Part shown: one piece after another, positions 4,311 to 45,370 of the stretch
Position numbering within the stretch: the stretch's first letter is position 1
Layout of the letters: every line of letters begins with the position of its first letter
Assembly: GCA_000998045.1 (NCBI GenBank)
Contig: LCCS01000012.1
Span: 1 to 45,765, forward strand
Length of the DNA stretch: 45,765 bases
Reading direction: 5' to 3'
Origin: Parcubacteria group bacterium GW2011_GWD2_42_14
Lineage (GTDB): Bacteria; Patescibacteriota; Minisyncoccia; Phycocordibacterales; UBA12088
The notes under the pieces: model-generated
Databases searched by the model: none
Told to the model about the DNA's origin: nothing
The model's input: the letters and a program-made list of their open reading frames with translations, nothing else
Position numbers and translations under genes: made by a program

Positions 4311-4492
4311 ATGGATCCCGTTAGAGACGGTAAATGATGGAAGGGAGACGTGTATCAAGCCATTTAACATGAAAATTGGAACAGACGGTAAAAGTTGTAG
4401 GCATTTGCAAGTAACAATGAAGAAGTTGGATTATAAAAGAATTACTAGCTTAACCGACGGACACTTTGTGTCCTGTCTCTAACGGGATGGAT
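4311..4492 (+). mobile_element. CCCGTTAGA element, copy 1 (170 bp, at uvrA start)
   Basis: Terminal inverted repeats CCCGTTAGA (4317-4325) and TCTAACGGG (4478-4486) bound a 170-bp insert. Identical 6-bp direct repeats ATGGAT flank it (4311-4316 and 4487-4492); the right copy is the uvrA start. Inner bases next to the ends also pair (GACGG with CCTGTC, allowing G:U), extending the stem. Inside are a local CCGT-TAGAG-ACGG hairpin and a GGACAC-TTT-GTGTCC hairpin (4460-4473). The left ATG opens an 8-codon frame (MDPVRDGK, stop at 4337). It contains no gene. It could be a MITE-like insertion, a structured 5' leader, or both. Confidence 0.7.
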
Positions 4493-7072: not shown

Positions 7073-7074
7073 AA

Positions 7075-7198
7075 TAGGACTTACGCAAACGGATGCAGTT
7101 CGAGGCGCCCTAGCAAAATGGAACAAGTTGTATGAACAATACTACGAGAGACATTTTGTGACGGACAACGATGAAATGCGCCGTTTACGTAGGTTCTA
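7075..7198. mobile_element. 124-bp palindromic MITE-like repeat, copy a
   Basis: Begins TA-GGACTTACGCAAACGG and ends CCGTTTACGTAGGTTC-TA, so the ends are inverted repeats flanked by TA. It fills almost the entire gap between the uvrA stop (7072) and the uvrC start (7204). Its orientation is reversed relative to most copies. The interior is the subtype with GTATGAACAATACTACGAGAG. Confidence 0.8.
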
Positions 7199-9458: not shown

Positions 9459-9582
9459 TAGGACTTACGGAAACGGTGTATTTCGTTGTCAAACTTCACA
9501 AAATGTCGTTCACTGTACGACTAGTACAGTTCACTCCATTTTGTTTGTTTTCCTAGAACTACACTCGTTTGCGTAAGTCCTA
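9459..9582. mobile_element. 124-bp palindromic MITE-like repeat, copy b
   Basis: TA-GGACTTACGGAAACGG at the left and CGTTTGCGTAAGTCC-TA at the right; same length as copies a, c and i. The interior is of the AACTTCACAAAATGTCGTTC...CCATTTTG type, itself imperfectly palindromic. It begins 2 nt after the ddl stop. Confidence 0.8.
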
Positions 9583-9585
9583 AAA

Positions 9586-9614
9586 GACCTACGCAATATG
9601 TATATGCGTAGGTC
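9586..9614. repeat. mini hairpin made of the repeat ends
   Basis: GACCTACGCA and TGCGTAGGTC form a 10-bp perfect stem around a 9-nt AT loop. The arms match the outer ends of the neighbouring 124-bp element, so it looks like an internally deleted derivative sitting directly beside copy b. Confidence 0.65.
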
Positions 9615-11727: not shown

Positions 11728-11851
11728 TAGGACTTACGCAAACGGCGTATTTCTTCGTTGTCCATCGCAAAATATCTCTCGTAGTATTGTTCATACAACT
11801 CGTTTTATTATGCTCGGCCGCCTCGAACTCCATCCGTTTGCGTACGTCCTA
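11728..11851. mobile_element. 124-bp palindromic MITE-like repeat, copy c
   Basis: TA-GGACTTACGCAAACGG ... CCGTTTGCGTACGTCC-TA. Same subtype as copies a and g (CTCGTAGTATTGTTCATACAA interior). It ends 5 nt before the GH1 gene, so the element supplies almost all of that gene's upstream region. Confidence 0.8.
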
Positions 11852-11856
11852 TACAC

Positions 11857-13068
11857 ATGAATGAAAAAAAAGTATTTCCAGATACCTTTCTATGGGGTTC
11901 AGCCACATCGAGTTATCAGGTAGAAGGAGGAATAGATAACAATGACTGGGCACAGGGTGCACGTGAGGGGAAGGTGCCTCCATGTGGTACTGCGTGCGAC
12001 CACTACAATCGCTATGAGCAAGATTTCGATATCGCAAAATCCCTCGGACATAACACACACCGGTTTTCTATAGAATGGTCTCGCATCGAGCCTGAAGAAG
12101 GGAAGTTTGATGAGAAAGAAATCGAGCATTACAGAGAAGTACTTCGAGCACTTCAAGCACGAGGTATCTATCCACTGATCACCCTCTGGCACTTTTGGCT
12201 TCCGTTATGGTTTTCGCGTAGTGGAGGATGGGAAAGGAAAGATGCACCTGAAGTTTTTTCACGATATTGTACGTATGTAGTGGAACAGTTAGGGGACCTT
12301 TGTGATAATTATGCGACCATAAATGAGCCGATGGTTTTTTCTGGGTTTGGGTATATTCGAGGGGAGTGGCCACCATTTTATAAAAAATCATTTTTAAAAT
12401 ATTTAAATGTAATAGTACAGTTAATACGGGGACACAACCTTTCATATCAGAGTATAAAAGCAACTTTTCCTAGAAAGAAAGTTGGAATTGTAAAGCATAT
12501 CGTGGTGTTTGGTGCTAACAAGAATCCTTTTAATATCTTTTTGGCATGGACTTTTAATTTAGGTTGGACTCATTTGTTTATGAGAAGAGTCTACAAAAAT
12601 ACAGACTGGGTAGGCTTAAATTACTATAACCGCAGGGTCTTTGGTGATACCTGTGTACTTGGAAAAACGGACATGGGATGGAATATAGATCCTAGGGGTA
12701 TCTATGAGGCACTTCATATGCTGTGGAAATATAAAAAACCAATCTATATTGCAGAAGCTGGGTGTGCTGACGCACACGATCGTTTTCGTGCTGACTATAT
12801 ACGCGATACGGTGGAGAGTATAAGTGAAGCAATTCAAGATGGAGTGGATGTGCGTGGATACTGTTATTGGTCACTGCTTGATAATTACGAATTGGCGGAG
12901 GGTTTTGAAAAACGATTTGGCTTAGTGGAGGTAAACTTCGACACACAAGAACGCACTATCCGCCCCTCCGCGCTCGTCTACCGTGACCTCATTCTTTCTC
13001 ATTCCCACCCAAAACATGAAGAAGGTTCAATCTTCTTCATAAAAAATCGCAAGGACCATATTTTATGA
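11857..13068 (+). CDS. glycoside hydrolase family 1 (beta-glucosidase-like)
   Basis: A 403-residue GH1 enzyme, retaining beta-glycosidase fold; no signal peptide, so cytoplasmic. Seen: N-terminal FPDTFLWGSATSSYQVEGG, HRFSIEWSRIEPEEG, the acid/base glutamate in ATINEPM (about residue 157), NYYNRR, the nucleophile region YIAEAGCAD (Glu about residue 306, variant of ITENG), and YCYWSLLDNYELAEGFEKRFGLV. It is somewhat shorter than the usual 440-480. The last residues HEEGSIFFIKNRKDHIL are encoded by REP palindrome 2, so the native C-terminus was probably replaced. Substrate unknown; an EamA-type transporter and a second glycosidase lie downstream. Confidence 0.93.
   Translation: MNEKKVFPDTFLWGSATSSYQVEGGIDNNDWAQGAREGKVPPCGTACDHYNRYEQDFDIAKSLGHNTHRFSIEWSRIEPEEGKFDEKEIEHYREVLRALQARGIYPLITLWHFWLPLWFSRSGGWERKDAPEVFSRYCTYVVEQLGDLCDNYATINEPMVFSGFGYIRGEWPPFYKKSFLKYLNVIVQLIRGHNLSYQSIKATFPRKKVGIVKHIVVFGANKNPFNIFLAWTFNLGWTHLFMRRVYKNTDWVGLNYYNRRVFGDTCVLGKTDMGWNIDPRGIYEALHMLWKYKKPIYIAEAGCADAHDRFRADYIRDTVESISEAIQDGVDVRGYCYWSLLDNYELAEGFEKRFGLVEVNFDTQERTIRPSALVYRDLILSHSHPKHEEGSIFFIKNRKDHIL
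13016..13040. repeat. REP palindrome 2, inside the GH1 gene
   Basis: Arms ATGAAGAAGGTT and AATCTTCTTCAT around one base, one mismatch from perfect. It is translated as HEEGSIFFI at the C-terminus of the glycosidase. Confidence 0.85.
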
Positions 13069-13117: not shown

Positions 13118-13855
13118 TTAAGAGTCGCTGTAATCAATACAGTCTTTTGAATCAATGTGTGACAAAAGGTCATTTTCTTCAACTACTGAACTGATGCTCT
13201 TAAAATATTTATTCTTATCTTCAAAAAGAGAAAAAATAAAATCTCGAGATGTAACTGATGGGAAATTCTTAATCTCAACATAGTCAGGGAAGCTACTCCA
13301 TTTATATTTTTTTAAATATTCTACACTCTCTTCTAGATTTAATAAGTTATTTTTTCCAAGGGGGTTAAGATGTATGTAATGCGTGATATATCTCAACTGT
13401 TCATCACTTAAGATGTTTTTACTTTTATATCGACCTTGAAACAAGGAACCTGAACGTTCATGTTTTTCATTGAACATCATGGTATACCCAGTACCCAACT
13501 TTTGCATAAATTTTGAAACCCCGTTGTCAACTTTTTGTTTGAGAAGTAGATGGTAATGATTTGGCATTAATACAAAAGCATATATATCGACCAACATGTC
13601 TCTTTTATAATTGTTAGGGTTACTAATGAAGAAGGTTGAGCCTTCTTCATTAGTGGCAGTTTGATAATTGTTAGATTTTGTTATTGATAGAAAATCTCTC
13701 CTAATATTAGTAGAAGTATTTTTTGAATCATTCAGAGTGTATAAGAAATGAATAAAATATCTATACTCATCGTCATCATCAAAAGTAATACGTTTATCAA
13801 CACCACGATTATAAATGTGATAAATACCGTCTGTCTCAATCGGTTCTCGTTGCAT
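13118..13855 (-). CDS. REP-associated tyrosine transposase (Y1/IS200-like, RAYT)
   Basis: A 245-residue single-domain HUH transposase. Seen: GIYHIYNRGVDKR (about residues 10-22), the HUH motif MPNHYHLLLK (His100 and His102), the catalytic-tyrosine helix region FMQKLGTGYTMMFNEKHERSGSLFQGRYKS (Tyr124 likely), and ITHYIHLNPL. RAYTs nick and join short REP hairpins. REP copies lie on both sides (13075, 13901) and one lies inside the gene (13626), coding NEEGSTFFI at residues 69-77 between the first strand and the HUH motif. ATG 13855 is chosen because family similarity begins there; minus-strand TATTAT (13871-13866) gives a leader of about 4 nt. Reading frame intact. Confidence 0.92.
   Translation of the reverse strand: MQREPIETDGIYHIYNRGVDKRITFDDDDEYRYFIHFLYTLNDSKNTSTNIRRDFLSITKSNNYQTATNEEGSTFFISNPNNYKRDMLVDIYAFVLMPNHYHLLLKQKVDNGVSKFMQKLGTGYTMMFNEKHERSGSLFQGRYKSKNILSDEQLRYITHYIHLNPLGKNNLLNLEESVEYLKKYKWSSFPDYVEIKNFPSVTSRDFIFSLFEDKNKYFKSISSVVEENDLLSHIDSKDCIDYSDS
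13626..13650. repeat. REP palindrome 4, inside the transposase gene
   Basis: ATGAAGAAGG-TTGAG-CCTTCTTCAT; the symmetry extends outward to 13622-13654 (ACTA/TAGT). In frame with the transposase on the minus strand, adding NEEGSTFFI without disrupting it. Confidence 0.85.
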
Positions 13856-13900
13856 AAGCAAAAAAATAATATAGAAAATATATTTATAGTATAAAGATCT

Positions 13901-13925
13901 ATGAAGAAGGTTCAACCTTCTTCAT
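13901..13925. repeat. REP palindrome 5
   Basis: Perfect arms ATGAAGAAGGTT / AACCTTCTTCAT around C, upstream of the transposase start and of the divergent EamA-like gene. Confidence 0.9.
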
Positions 13926-16870: not shown

Positions 16871-17046
16871 GGGACCTATGTAAACGGCGCGTTTCGTCGT
16901 CAAACTTCACAAAATGTCGTTCGCTGTACGACGTTGTACAGCTCACTCCATTTTGTTCGTTTTCCTAGAAGTGCGACCAATTTTTGTTAGCCGAAGGCGT
17001 TACAAAAATGAAGTACTCTTGTGGTGCATCCGTTTACGTAGGTCCC
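16871..17046. mobile_element. palindromic MITE-like repeat, copy d (enlarged)
   Basis: GGGACCTATGTAAACGG ... CCGTTTACGTAGGTCCC, about 176 bp. The core matches copies b, f and i; an extra block of about 50 bp near the right end (GCGACCAATTTTTGTTAG..., 16973-17025) is shared, in reverse complement, with copy e. Confidence 0.75.
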
Positions 17047-20878: not shown

Positions 20879-21000
20879 GAACCTACATAAACGGCGCAGT
20901 TCGTCGTCAAACTTCACAAAATGTCGTTCACTGTACGACGAGTACAGCTCACTCCATTTTGTTCGTTTTCCTCGAACTGCATCCGTTTCTGTAAGTTCTA
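20876..21000. mobile_element. 125-bp MITE-like repeat, copy f
   Basis: TA-AGAACCTACATAAACGG ... CCGTTTCTGTAAGTTC-TA, with the CACAAAATGTCGTTCACTG interior shared with copies b, d and i. Its first bases overlap the stop of the umuD-like gene. Confidence 0.8.
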
Positions 21001-21187
21001 TTCTATTTTTGTTCGGACACCTTGAACTTCATCCGTTTGCGTAAGTCCTAACATCTGCTTCAGTTAAGTGTAAGTTCTGTTCTATGAAGTCCTGTTCTTC
21101 GCTCCTCCGGGAGCTACGGACTCTTGCGCCAAAGCTTTAGCGTCGGAGCACGGACAAGTAGAACTGCACCGTTTGTGTAAACTCTAT
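21001..21187. repeat. composite of repeat fragments before umuC
   Basis: Two pieces follow copy f. 21001-21050 is a second right half (CTTGAACTTCATCCG...CGTAAGTCCTA). 21065-21187 runs from GTGTAAGTTCTG to GCACCGTTTGTGTAAACTC and carries a GC-rich module CGCTCCTCCGGGAGCTACGG plus GGACAAGTAGAACT, both also found in copy h (27170-27200). No gene is seen in this 187-bp stretch. Confidence 0.65.
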
Positions 21188-21198
21188 TAAAAATATAC

Positions 21199-22470
21199 AT
21201 GACAGAATATATTTTTTTGATTGATTGTGACAATTTCTTTGTTTCCTGCGAGCGATTATTTCGTCCTGATTTACAAAAGAAGCCTGTGCTTGTTTTATCA
21301 AGCAATGATGGGTGTGTTATTTCGCGTTCACAAGAGGTAAAAAATCTAGGCATAGGAATGGGTGAGCCGTACTTTAAAATACGTGACCTGTGTGAGAAAA
21401 ACACTGTTTTTCTTTTCTCAACAAATTTTGAATTATATAGAGATATTTCAGCACGGGTAATGAGTGTGTTGCGACGTTTCTCAGATACCGTCGAAGTATA
21501 TTCTGTTGATGAGGCCTTTTTAACTTTTTCTGTTTCTCAAAATGCAGAAGCGATACTTTTAGAAAAAGCGAAGGAGGTTCGTTTTGCTGTCATGCGAGAA
21601 ATTGGTGTACCAGTATCTGTGGGAGTGGCTGTGACAAAGACATTAGCAAAAGTTGCAACTCATTTTGCGAAACCGAAACACAGCACTAATGGCTGTTTTG
21701 TCCTCGTGGATACCGATTTGATACATGAATCCCTGAAGAAACTAGAAATTGGTGATGTGTGGGGTATTGGGCGAAGACTTGCGTCCAAACTTGCGAAAGC
21801 AGGAGTACACACTGCTTTTGATTTTTACAGTAAGACCTATCCATGGATACAAGCACAAACAAGTATTCTTGGTGTGCGCACTGCACGAGAGTTACATGGT
21901 GTACGGCAGCTTGCTGTGGGTGAAGATGCCGAGCTTCGCAAATCGCTCCTGCATTCACAGTCGTTTGGTAGCGCGGTACATTGTCTCATCGACCTACAAA
22001 CATCCGTAGCCTATCATGCGCGCAAGGTTGCGGAGATCTTACGCAAGGAAGGTGCGCTCGCGCGTGAGGTGAGTATCTTTCTCTATAGAAAATGCACAAA
22101 CGGAAAGCGTGAGAAAGTGCTAGGCTCTGAGATTCTTGGTACCTATACCAACAGTACACTTATCATCGTTGCTACGACGCTCACCGTGCTTGCGCGCTTG
22201 TATGTGCCGGAACATTCGTATACCAAAGCAGGCGTGTATGTAAAAAGTATAGTTCCCGAAGGAGGTCAACCGAGAAGTACGTTATTTGGGGAGTATACCA
22301 ACACACATCAGGAGATAATGACAGCTGTTGATGATTTACGGAGTAGGTATGGGGACGTGATACACACAGGTCTTGAAACACGCGCTAGCAAAAGTCAGGC
22401 ACATTCAAACCACCTCTCCCCACGGCGTACTACCAGATGGGGCGAGGTTTTACATATAGGGCTTACGTAA
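21199..22470 (+). CDS. umuC: Y-family DNA polymerase UmuC
   Basis: A 423-residue translesion polymerase of the UmuC (Pol V) type. Seen: DCDNFFVSCERLFRPDLQKKPVLVLS with the first carboxylate, SSNDGCVISRSQEVKNLGIGMGEPYFK, the YSVDEAFL catalytic carboxylates (about residues 101-108), helix-hairpin-helix IGDVWGIGRRLASKLAKAG, and a little-finger domain with LHSQSFGSAV. It is the last gene of the SOS cassette. The final residues HIGLT and the stop codon come from the left end of MITE copy g, so the original C-terminus may have been altered. No clear promoter of its own. Confidence 0.95.
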   Translation: MTEYIFLIDCDNFFVSCERLFRPDLQKKPVLVLSSNDGCVISRSQEVKNLGIGMGEPYFKIRDLCEKNTVFLFSTNFELYRDISARVMSVLRRFSDTVEVYSVDEAFLTFSVSQNAEAILLEKAKEVRFAVMREIGVPVSVGVAVTKTLAKVATHFAKPKHSTNGCFVLVDTDLIHESLKKLEIGDVWGIGRRLASKLAKAGVHTAFDFYSKTYPWIQAQTSILGVRTARELHGVRQLAVGEDAELRKSLLHSQSFGSAVHCLIDLQTSVAYHARKVAEILRKEGALAREVSIFLYRKCTNGKREKVLGSEILGTYTNSTLIIVATTLTVLARLYVPEHSYTKAGVYVKSIVPEGGQPRSTLFGEYTNTHQEIMTAVDDLRSRYGDVIHTGLETRASKSQAHSNHLSPRRTTRWGEVLHIGLT

Positions 22471-22582
22471 ACGGCGAATTTCATCGTTGCCCTGCACAAA
22501 AAATGTTTCTCGTAGTATTGTTCATACAACTCGTTCCATTTTGCTTGGGCGCCTTGAACTTCATCCGTTTTCGTAAGTCCTA
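22457..22582. mobile_element. 126-bp MITE-like repeat, copy g
   Basis: TA-GGGCTTACGTAAACGG ... CCGTTTTCGTAAGTCC-TA, CTCGTAGTATTGTTCATACAA subtype like copies a and c. It overlaps the last 14 bases of umuC and provides its TAA. Confidence 0.8.
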
Positions 22583-22677
22583 GAATTATTACTATAATTC
22601 AAGTATTCGAGTGATAATTAATCATACGAGTAACCACGCACTTATGGTAAAATAATTGTGTACGGAGCCTATAAAAT

Positions 22678-38519: not shown

Positions 38520-38722
38520 AGGTTACCCCCACGGTTGATTTGGTCTTCTCTTGAAGTACGTTAGTTTCTAAAAACACAGTATATCCTAAATATATAATTT
38601 GAAAAGGATTTTTGTCCACCACTTCAATAAAACATGCTAATGATAAGTTTTAAAGTGTGTGGGCCTTGCAGTTATGCCAAGTATTCTGTACTATTCTCAT
38701 GTGAACTCATAAGCTTCAATGG
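38520..38722. other. intergenic stretch before tRNA-Ala, no gene
   Basis: No coding frame is credible. It probably holds the promoter of the minus-strand gene (38579-38584) and that of tRNA-Ala: TTGCAG, 17 nt, TACTAT (about 38665-38693), or CATAAG (38708-38713), whose predicted start falls at 38720, next to the first GGGCCCG copy. Confidence 0.4.
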
Positions 38723-38833
38723 GCCCGCCCCGTTAGAAGTTGTTATGTAAGTTACGATTGTAGCAACTTATAAACTAAAGTTTGAGTTTCAATATTCTGA
38801 ATAGAAGTATCACAGACTTCTAACGGGGCCCGT
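38723..38833 (+). mobile_element. CCCGTTAGA element, copy 2 (99 bp, at tRNA-Ala 5' end)
   Basis: Ends CCCGTTAGA (38729-38737) and TCTAACGGG (38819-38827); the stem extends inward as AGT/ACT. Flanking sequences GCCCGC and GCCCGT match in 5 of 6 bases, and with the two Gs before the left copy GGGCCCG occurs on both sides (38721-38727 and 38826-38832). The right end itself supplies the first two Gs of the tRNA. Same length as copy 3 (99 bp); the interiors share a GAATAGA word at nearly the same position but little else. Confidence 0.7.
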
Positions 38834-38898
38834 AGCTCACCTGGTAGAGCGCCTCATTTGCACTGAGGAGGTAGGGGGTTCGAGTCCTCTCGGGTCCA
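38826..38898 (+). tRNA. tRNA-Ala (anticodon UGC)
   Basis: A 73-nt cloverleaf. Acceptor GGGCCCG pairs with CGGGTCC (one G:U), D arm GCTCACCTGGTAGAGC, anticodon stem CCTCA/TGAGG around TTTGCAC giving anticodon TGC, short variable loop, T loop TTCGAGT, discriminator A. CCA is not encoded (A is followed by CAA). The 5' end overlaps the right end of the CCCGTTAGA element, which could pair with the acceptor strand and affect RNase P processing. Confidence 0.95.
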
Positions 38899-38907
38899 CA
38901 AAGTATT

Positions 38908-38948: not shown

Positions 38949-39088
38949 GGACCCGAGAGGACTCGAAGGCCGCAGGTGCGCGTGCCTAAGCACGAGAGAG
39001 CACCGAGGCGGGGTCGCAAGCACTTGGTATTTTTGAGCGCACCGCACGAAGAAAATACCTAGTGACTTGGACCGAGTCCTCTCAGACC
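38949..39088. repeat. tRNA-ended palindromic unit A
   Basis: The left end is the reverse complement of the tRNA-Ala 3' part: 19 nt identical to TTCGAGTCCTCTCGGGTCC (38949-38967). The right end is GGACCGAGTCCTCTC (39069-39083) in direct orientation, so the two ends are inverted repeats built from the T-arm and acceptor. Inside are hairpins GTGCCTAAGCAC and CACTTGGTATTTT / AAAATACCTAGTG (one mismatch, 39021-39064). No gene. Confidence 0.7.
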
Positions 39089-39102
39089 AATGCACCTTGC
39101 GT

Positions 39103-39226
39103 GAGGACTCGAACGGCGGAGGCATGTGCCGTAGGCACAGCCGAGCCTAGACGAAACGCACTTAGGATTTGAGGAGTTTACGACGAATAATCCTTAGTGA
39201 CGTATCGTCGAGTCCTCTCGGGTCCA
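39103..39226. repeat. tRNA-ended palindromic unit B, with trailing fragments to 39281
   Basis: Same plan as unit A: left GAGGACTCGAA (39103-39113), right TCGAGTCCTCTCGGGTCC (39208-39225). Inner hairpins GTGCCGTAGGCAC and CACTTAGGATT / AATCCTTAGTG, mismatched at the same stem position as in unit A although the rest of the stem differs. Two more direct T-arm fragments follow (39234-39249 and 39270-39280). Confidence 0.7.
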
Positions 39227-39383
39227 CTTGGACCGAGTCCTCTCGGGTCAAAATATCCGCGATTCTGGGTCGAGTCCTCACGGTACTTGTGTGAGTAGCT
39301 TAAATGTTTATAACAAACAATTACTGATGTAACGAATGGTACAATAATGCTACTACTACTGATGCGCGTGGTGGTTACTTAAT

Positions 39384-42621: not shown

Positions 42622-42745
42622 TAAGACTTACATAAACGGCGCATTTCGTTGTCAAACTTCACAAAATGTCATTCACTGTACGACGAGTACAGCTCACTCC
42701 ATTTTGTTCGTTTTCCTAGAACTGCATCCGTTTGTGTAAGTCCTA
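42622..42745. mobile_element. 124-bp MITE-like repeat, copy i
   Basis: TA-AGACTTACATAAACGG ... CCGTTTGTGTAAGTCC-TA, closest to copies b and f (CACAAAATGTCATTCACTG interior). It separates the divergent PfkB and bL25 genes. Confidence 0.8.
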
Positions 42746-42804
42746 GCTTATTAAGTTTTCACCTAGGTAATTGTACCAAGTATTGCATGCTTCGCGAAAT
42801 CAGG

Positions 42805-45259: not shown

Positions 45260-45370
45260 ATGAATCCCGTTAGAAATTATACAAAGAACGGGTAAAGTAC
45301 GTATTATTTAAGGTTTTTTAATTTTTTAAATGAGAATAGAGTTATTAGAATAATTTCTAACGGGATGAAA
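45260..45370 (+). mobile_element. CCCGTTAGA element, copy 3 (99 bp, at bL31 start)
   Basis: Ends CCCGTTAGA (45266-45274) and TCTAACGGG (45356-45364); pairing continues inward (AATTAT/ATAATT) for 17 bp in total. Flanks ATGAAT (45260-45265) and ATGAAA (45365-45370) match in 5 of 6 bases, and the right one is the start of bL31. The left ATG opens an 11-codon frame (MNPVRNYTKNG, stop at 45295). TG-G-TATTGT (45237-45245) is a possible promoter with a start near 45252. A local CCCGTT...AACGGG pairing (45266-45292) competes with the long stem. Confidence 0.7.

Follow-up and report, generated by a model that had tools for sequence, protein, structure and literature searches.

A palindromic insert at a tRNA-Ala gene as a probable short copy of a tiny mobile-element family that encodes a GIY-YIG nuclease

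The insert at the tRNA-Ala gene and its empty sites

The tRNA-Ala (TGC) gene of one Parcubacteria genome (1.08 Mb, 44 contigs) raises the question of why its 5′ acceptor strand is found twice, flanking a palindromic insert, and whether this insert is a feature of the tRNA or a mobile element. The gene lies in a 45,765-nucleotide stretch of contig LCCS01000012.1, which was analysed as a whole and is called the window here. As the preliminary description reported and the sequence confirms, two copies of GGGCCCG, 105 bp apart (38721–38727 and 38826–38832), surround an insert with the arms CCCCGTTAGAAGT and ACTTCTAACGGGG at its two sides, which pair with each other (Table 1). The insert had been described as a 99-bp element providing two bases of the tRNA. 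The element is indeed present and its end does supply the first tRNA bases; however, by the 4-bp duplication rule of the family it is 101 bp long, and its last three bases, not two, are G1–G3 of tRNA-Ala (38826–38828).

Table 1. Features of the tRNA-Ala site and two further copies in the window
Feature	Position	Strand	Remarks
Target duplication, left copy, CCCG	38724..38727	+	Within the first GGGCCCG; 4-bp rule taken from the family
Non-autonomous element, 101 bp, terminal C and G	38728..38828	.	No ORF of its own
Element core, CCCGTTAGAAGT...ACTTCTAACGGG	38729-38827		Inside the 38728..38828 element
tRNA-Ala (TGC)	38826..38899	+	ARAGORN and Rfam, both with the start at 38826
Target duplication, right copy, CCCG	38829..38832	+	Bases 4-7 of tRNA-Ala
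Second copy, T...A type, 101 bp	45265..45365	.	Directly before rpmE
Third copy, T...A type, 172 bp	4316..4487	.	At the uvrA start codon

The insert folded as single-stranded DNA reaches -20.5 kcal/mol, 5.3 SD below shuffled sequences. When the tRNA precursor is modelled with the left GGGCCCG forced as the acceptor strand, the fold has -61.9 kcal/mol, compared with -58.9 kcal/mol for the native right copy, and the left copy is used in the unconstrained minimum (-63.9 kcal/mol) too. Either copy is thus predicted to be able to pair with the 3′ acceptor strand after the insertion, the left-hand fold being better by 3 kcal/mol, and the competing hairpin proposed earlier is thermodynamically plausible in these predictions. 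It is a by-product of the insertion. The view that the junction with the tRNA has a function of its own found no support, since the junction follows from the mode of insertion (4-bp duplication, GGGR end) and syntenic sisters are without the insert. In the assembly, which is 94% complete, no second tRNA-Ala (TGC) was found, the remaining tRNA-Ala gene being GGC; the window gene is therefore presumably still functional. Another related copy (L055) lies at the 5′ end of a tRNA-Leu gene, the acceptor strand of which is rebuilt likewise. Downstream of tRNA-Ala, at 38950-39260, the window holds several fragments of either orientation that resemble the 3′ end of this tRNA (GAGTCCTCTCGGGTCCAC and its variants).

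The comparison with related genomes, suggested in the preliminary description, gave proof of insertion. In four sister species (G001–G004) the tRNA-Ala gene has an empty 5′ end, with rpmE at a similar distance from it in G001, whereas the closest sister, G005, carries the insert at the same place with 94% identity. The insertion therefore predates the split of G005 from the genome of the window (G000) and postdates the separation from the others. The rpmE sites are also empty in G001–G004 and in G006, with the ATG in the same context. The insert is a mobile element rather than a feature of the tRNA. The two further copies in the window have intact ends. The final A of the copy before rpmE is the A of the start codon (45365-45367), and this copy is flanked by the duplication TGAA (45261-45264 and 45366-45369); the copy at uvrA is flanked by TGGA (4312-4315 and 4488-4491). 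The same element without a GGGCCCG repeat had been named as contrary evidence; such copies were found, but each site has its own duplication (TGAA, TGGA, TTGA, CAAG and others), as transposition predicts.

Throughout G000 the motif YCCCGTTAGA occurs 30+25 times and the reversed control pattern 2+2 times, which excludes chance; the numbers for G005 are 32+27 and 0-2. At one composite locus of G000 (L161, C8, 1801-2510) a CCCGTTAGA end is joined with the RAYT palindrome ATTAATGAGGTCGGACCTCATTAAT, also found beside a RAYT gene on contig C30. The window further contains a different dispersed repeat family (7074-7198, 9463-9589, 11732-11858, 16874-16933, 20881-21050, 22461-22607 and 42626-42752), whose copies are up to 127 nt long, end in ...CGTTTGCGTAAGTCCTA / TAGGACTTACGCAAACG... 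and occur in both orientations.

Ends, duplications and targets of the family

The anatomy of the family was established with 182 distinct copies, which come from Patescibacteria as well as from other phyla. Its identity depends on the ends, YCCCGTTAGA...TCTAACGGGR, with the termini T...A in 103 copies and C...G in 73, while the size varies from 27 to 283 bp and is chiefly 92–120 bp. Insertion is precise, with a target duplication of 4 bp that lies outside the terminal base of the element. The duplication is exact in 68/103 T/A-ended copies (24 in shuffled data) and in 39/73 C/G-ended copies (3.5 in shuffled data); at some copies it is missing. A duplication of 5 or 6 bp was considered and rejected, as a match at the base preceding the left copy is found in no more than 37/73 of the copies with C/G ends and as a C/G copy at a start codon leaves GTG in place of ATG (L058, L111, L149). 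Public genomes scanned for paired ends yielded at least 115 stretches, and the taxa among the matches listed include Patescibacteria groups, Omnitrophota, Planctomycetota, Nitrospirota, delta-proteobacteria, Elusimicrobiota, Spirochaetota and others. Repeat positions 10–12 vary between copies, yet they match between the two arms in 165, 159 and 157 of 174 cases (72, 88 and 68 expected), and this agreement holds within a single genome (GAT, AAC, GGC, GAC and AGC in G018); from position 13 onward it is not seen. Such agreement fits either a hairpin formed by the paired ends or several co-resident subfamilies. The element matched no known RNA family, and Rfam gave no intron match in the window or at eight short-copy loci. 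Two 107-bp CCCGTTAGA elements carry a complete tRNA as cargo: tRNA-Ala CGC in a Parcubacteria genome (L114, 1141-1247), where the copy is located in the anticodon loop of tRNA-Glu, and tRNA-Val GAC in Spirochaetia (L085, 432-538).

Among the A-ended copies, 86/103 finish precisely at the ATG that opens an ORF with 50 codons or more, the A of this ATG being the element's own last (right-hand) base; the original ATGNN is usually retained to the left of the copy, and in some cases tandem copies stand at one ATG. Of the insertions at ATG(AA/GA/AG), 55/59 are at ORF starts, compared with 38% of non-coding sites of this kind at the same loci (P=3e-19), a percentage that is approximate, as the ORFs were called mechanically. 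The start-codon bias thus exceeds the effect of the motif. Shine-Dalgarno sequences are not above chance in either target or control genes. The possibility that transcription starts are targeted as a general rule was rejected: enrichment of a -10 box at the leaderless spacing is seen ahead of target ATGs, but it is just as strong ahead of control genes; C/G targets lack this signal, and no sign of a transcription start at the insertion point is given by the empty tRNA sites. The bias may come from active targeting or from survival at those sites where YCCC...GGGR rebuilds the ATG and harm is least; selection alone would have to be strong, because other non-coding sites are abundant. As the preliminary description argued from the tRNA target, a general role that depends on translation (start-codon masking, ribosome bypass) is excluded, and dozens of intergenic targets agree with this. 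At one locus of G000 (L157, C1, 1212-1472) the stop codon TGA of the GIY-YIG gene shares an ATGA with the start codon of the host gene that follows, and translational coupling is possible there.

The GIY-YIG gene and the proposed mechanism of movement

The full-length copies (269-283 bp) are nearly filled by one gene, encoding a GIY-YIG nuclease of 82-86 aa. In the class of 275-283 bp, seen in four genomes, the protein is whole or partial and its last codons enter the right repeat. The coding copy of G000 itself (C1, 27392-27668) encodes an 86-aa protein matching PF01541 (E=2.4e-17), a match that fixes its fold; it has relatives of known structure among the UPF0213 proteins and, weakly, in SLX1. 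When the best 30 relatives in 297 genomes of the order were inspected, 24/30 were inside a CCCGTTAGA element of 269-280 bp, 12 of these with an exact 4-bp duplication, and others had variant ends, e.g., CCCGTACGA or CCCGTTCCA. Terminal inverted repeats (score of at least 12) flank 67% of 117 distinct GIY-YIG loci but 0.7% of the 300 windows with the same geometry that served as controls. Ends and protein have diversified together: on the protein tree, which is built from few columns, the seven repeat families, which were delimited visually on the repeat sequence alone, require 6 changes, which is the minimum (shuffled mean 41, lowest 36), and 8 changes when the C-terminal third of the region overlapping the repeat is left out. 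Further GIY-YIG terminal-repeat families (L203-L322) include CCCTGTTAAATAA, CCCGTAGTAG, AAACTTTTTA and CACACY types, and each of them presumably has short derivatives as well. A separate, well-supported clade is formed by 16 GIY-YIG genes that have no repeats and may be cellular. In at least 98% of 82 repeat-flanked proteins Y5, Y16, R26, H30 and E62 are conserved. A cognate GIY-YIG gene is present in 10/13 genomes with at least seven copies and in 2/48 others (Fisher P=2e-7). An intact cognate gene was not found in three genomes with many copies (G018, G034, G055), which may have lost it. Between the repeats no gene other than GIY-YIG was found at any size, and none of the loci inspected has a longer CCCGTTAGA pair enclosing another gene.

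The insert at tRNA-Ala is very probably a short, non-autonomous, MITE-like copy of this tiny family, mobilised by the GIY-YIG protein. In the mechanism that we propose, autonomous copies of 269-283 bp would consist of the terminal inverted repeats YCCCGTTAGARRY and a single GIY-YIG gene of 82-86 codons. The protein would recognise the paired ends, in the form either of DNA repeats or of a folded hairpin, and would cut both the element boundaries and the target R|TNNN with a 4-nt stagger. The joint would then be finished by host repair or ligation, giving the 4-bp duplication; in a start codon the element would enter between A and TG, and in a tRNA between GGG and CCCG. Because the element has YCCC at its start and GGGR at its end, the interrupted start codon or tRNA 5′ end is restored, and the host gene can survive. 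Cutting by this protein and the mode of strand joining are inferences. GIY-YIG enzymes are known as hydrolytic nucleases, not strand-joining enzymes, and to our knowledge none is an established transposition enzyme for DNA elements with terminal repeats. The smallest hairpins, 27–29 bp, may offer too little length for a paired-end transposition complex of the ordinary kind. The elements are likely to be autonomous DNA transposons of a new class and, at ~275 bp, the smallest known, with an 86-residue GIY-YIG nuclease as their only protein, with several repeat families and abundant gene-free hairpins across Patescibacteria and other phyla, and with a preference for start codons and tRNA 5′ ends that their own termini rebuild.

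The chemistry that joins no strands by itself, together with the three high-copy genomes where the intact cognate gene was not found, could be explained if an unidentified other transposase or recombinase mobilised the elements in trans and the GIY-YIG gene were a passenger or an accessory factor. This is rather unlikely, as GIY-YIG is the only gene found within the repeats at any size and as a passenger gene would not diversify together with the ends as is seen here, where the seven repeat families track the GIY-YIG clades. The hairpin architecture, the size of ~100 bp and the Y1 genes, which are common in these genomes, represented once in the window and suggestive in their association with the copies, recall elements of the REPIN/BIME type, which a RAYT (Y1) transposase moves. 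This explanation is extremely improbable: RAYT-like genes typically have palindromes of their own, CCCGTTAGA is present at no inspected locus of this kind, and G021 has ~10 copies but no Y1 gene. We also know of no target duplications produced by insertion of the RAYT/IS200 type. The RAYT-like Y1 transposase gene of the window (13118-13915) is flanked by its own palindrome, GAAGAAGGTTSAACCTTCTTC; such genes in related genomes mostly have their own palindrome too, and the inspected loci have others or none.

A very unlikely possibility is that the copies are not mobile at all and form a selected regulatory or leader element at start codons, e.g., a 5′-UTR hairpin for a gene set. It would account for the abutment of the start codon by 86/103 T/A copies and for the excess at ATG(AA/GA/AG) sites (55/59 against 38% expected), but not for target duplications, empty sites, tandem insertions at one start codon and copies at tRNAs and unrelated intergenic sites. 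Selection at the RNA level was also not seen in the gene-sense mismatches (25 G-T, 32 A-C). It is hardly conceivable that the insert is removed or skipped at the RNA level, by intron-like excision or ribosome bypass: the direct repeats could serve as exchange points, and the copy in the tRNA-Glu anticodon loop would suit such removal, yet copies are almost never found within coding sequence, where removal would render them harmless, and the downstream gene is complete without any removal. The preferred reading, mobilisation by the GIY-YIG protein, agrees with the gene within the repeats and with the co-diversification of both.

Comparison with known systems

In the open-access literature no description of this end sequence or of GIY-YIG elements with terminal repeats was found, and the family is apparently undescribed. 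If confirmed, the lower size limit of autonomous transposons would move to a protein of 86 residues and an element of ~275 bp, transposition would gain an enzyme class, and the abundance of small GIY-YIG genes in Patescibacteria genomes would be explained. A compact nuclease of this kind may also be of use as a tool. It was reported that CPR rRNA genes hold GIY-YIG-encoding inserts matching no known intron, along with uncharacterised gene-free inserts, mostly <200 bp (PMC11270868, 2024). That study searched rRNA genes only, and the passages considered here do not mention inverted repeats, target duplications or a wider family; the present family, if confirmed, possibly accounts for these unexplained inserts in Patescibacteria rRNA genes.

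An integron attC site or gene cassette was considered and rejected, as the element runs from GTTAGA to TCTAAC, the reverse of RYYYAAC ... GTTRRRY, and has target duplications. Penelope-like retroelements also have a GIY-YIG domain within a mobile element; however, the present one is a compact DNA element with terminal inverted repeats and without reverse transcriptase, and has room for the GIY-YIG ORF only. REPIN/RAYT systems are similar in that one small protein mobilises palindromic repeats of ~100 bp in trans, but the enzyme and the flanking palindromes are others, the present family makes target duplications, and none of the RAYT loci inspected has a gene flanked by CCCGTTAGA. With GIY-YIG homing endonucleases (I-TevI, the free-standing Seg) the family shares a single GIY-YIG domain with conserved key residues and, likely, selfish spread. 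It differs from them in its terminal inverted repeats and gene-free derivatives, and in that no intron or intein is involved: the gene fills the 275-bp element, and the sites are not one homing site but dozens of unrelated ones, each with its own 4-bp duplication.

The likeness to the MITEs of DDE insertion sequences lies in short, gene-free elements with terminal inverted repeats and a small target duplication of fixed size, which derive from longer coding copies. Terminal inverted repeats and the fixed-size duplication are both present in the family, whereas its coding partners encode GIY-YIG only. The partner thus differs from that of MITEs in having a GIY-YIG protein without a DDE transposase and in being just ~275 bp long. 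The strong start-codon preference is a further difference and, together with an end that rebuilds the ATG, would represent a new way of living in streamlined genomes.
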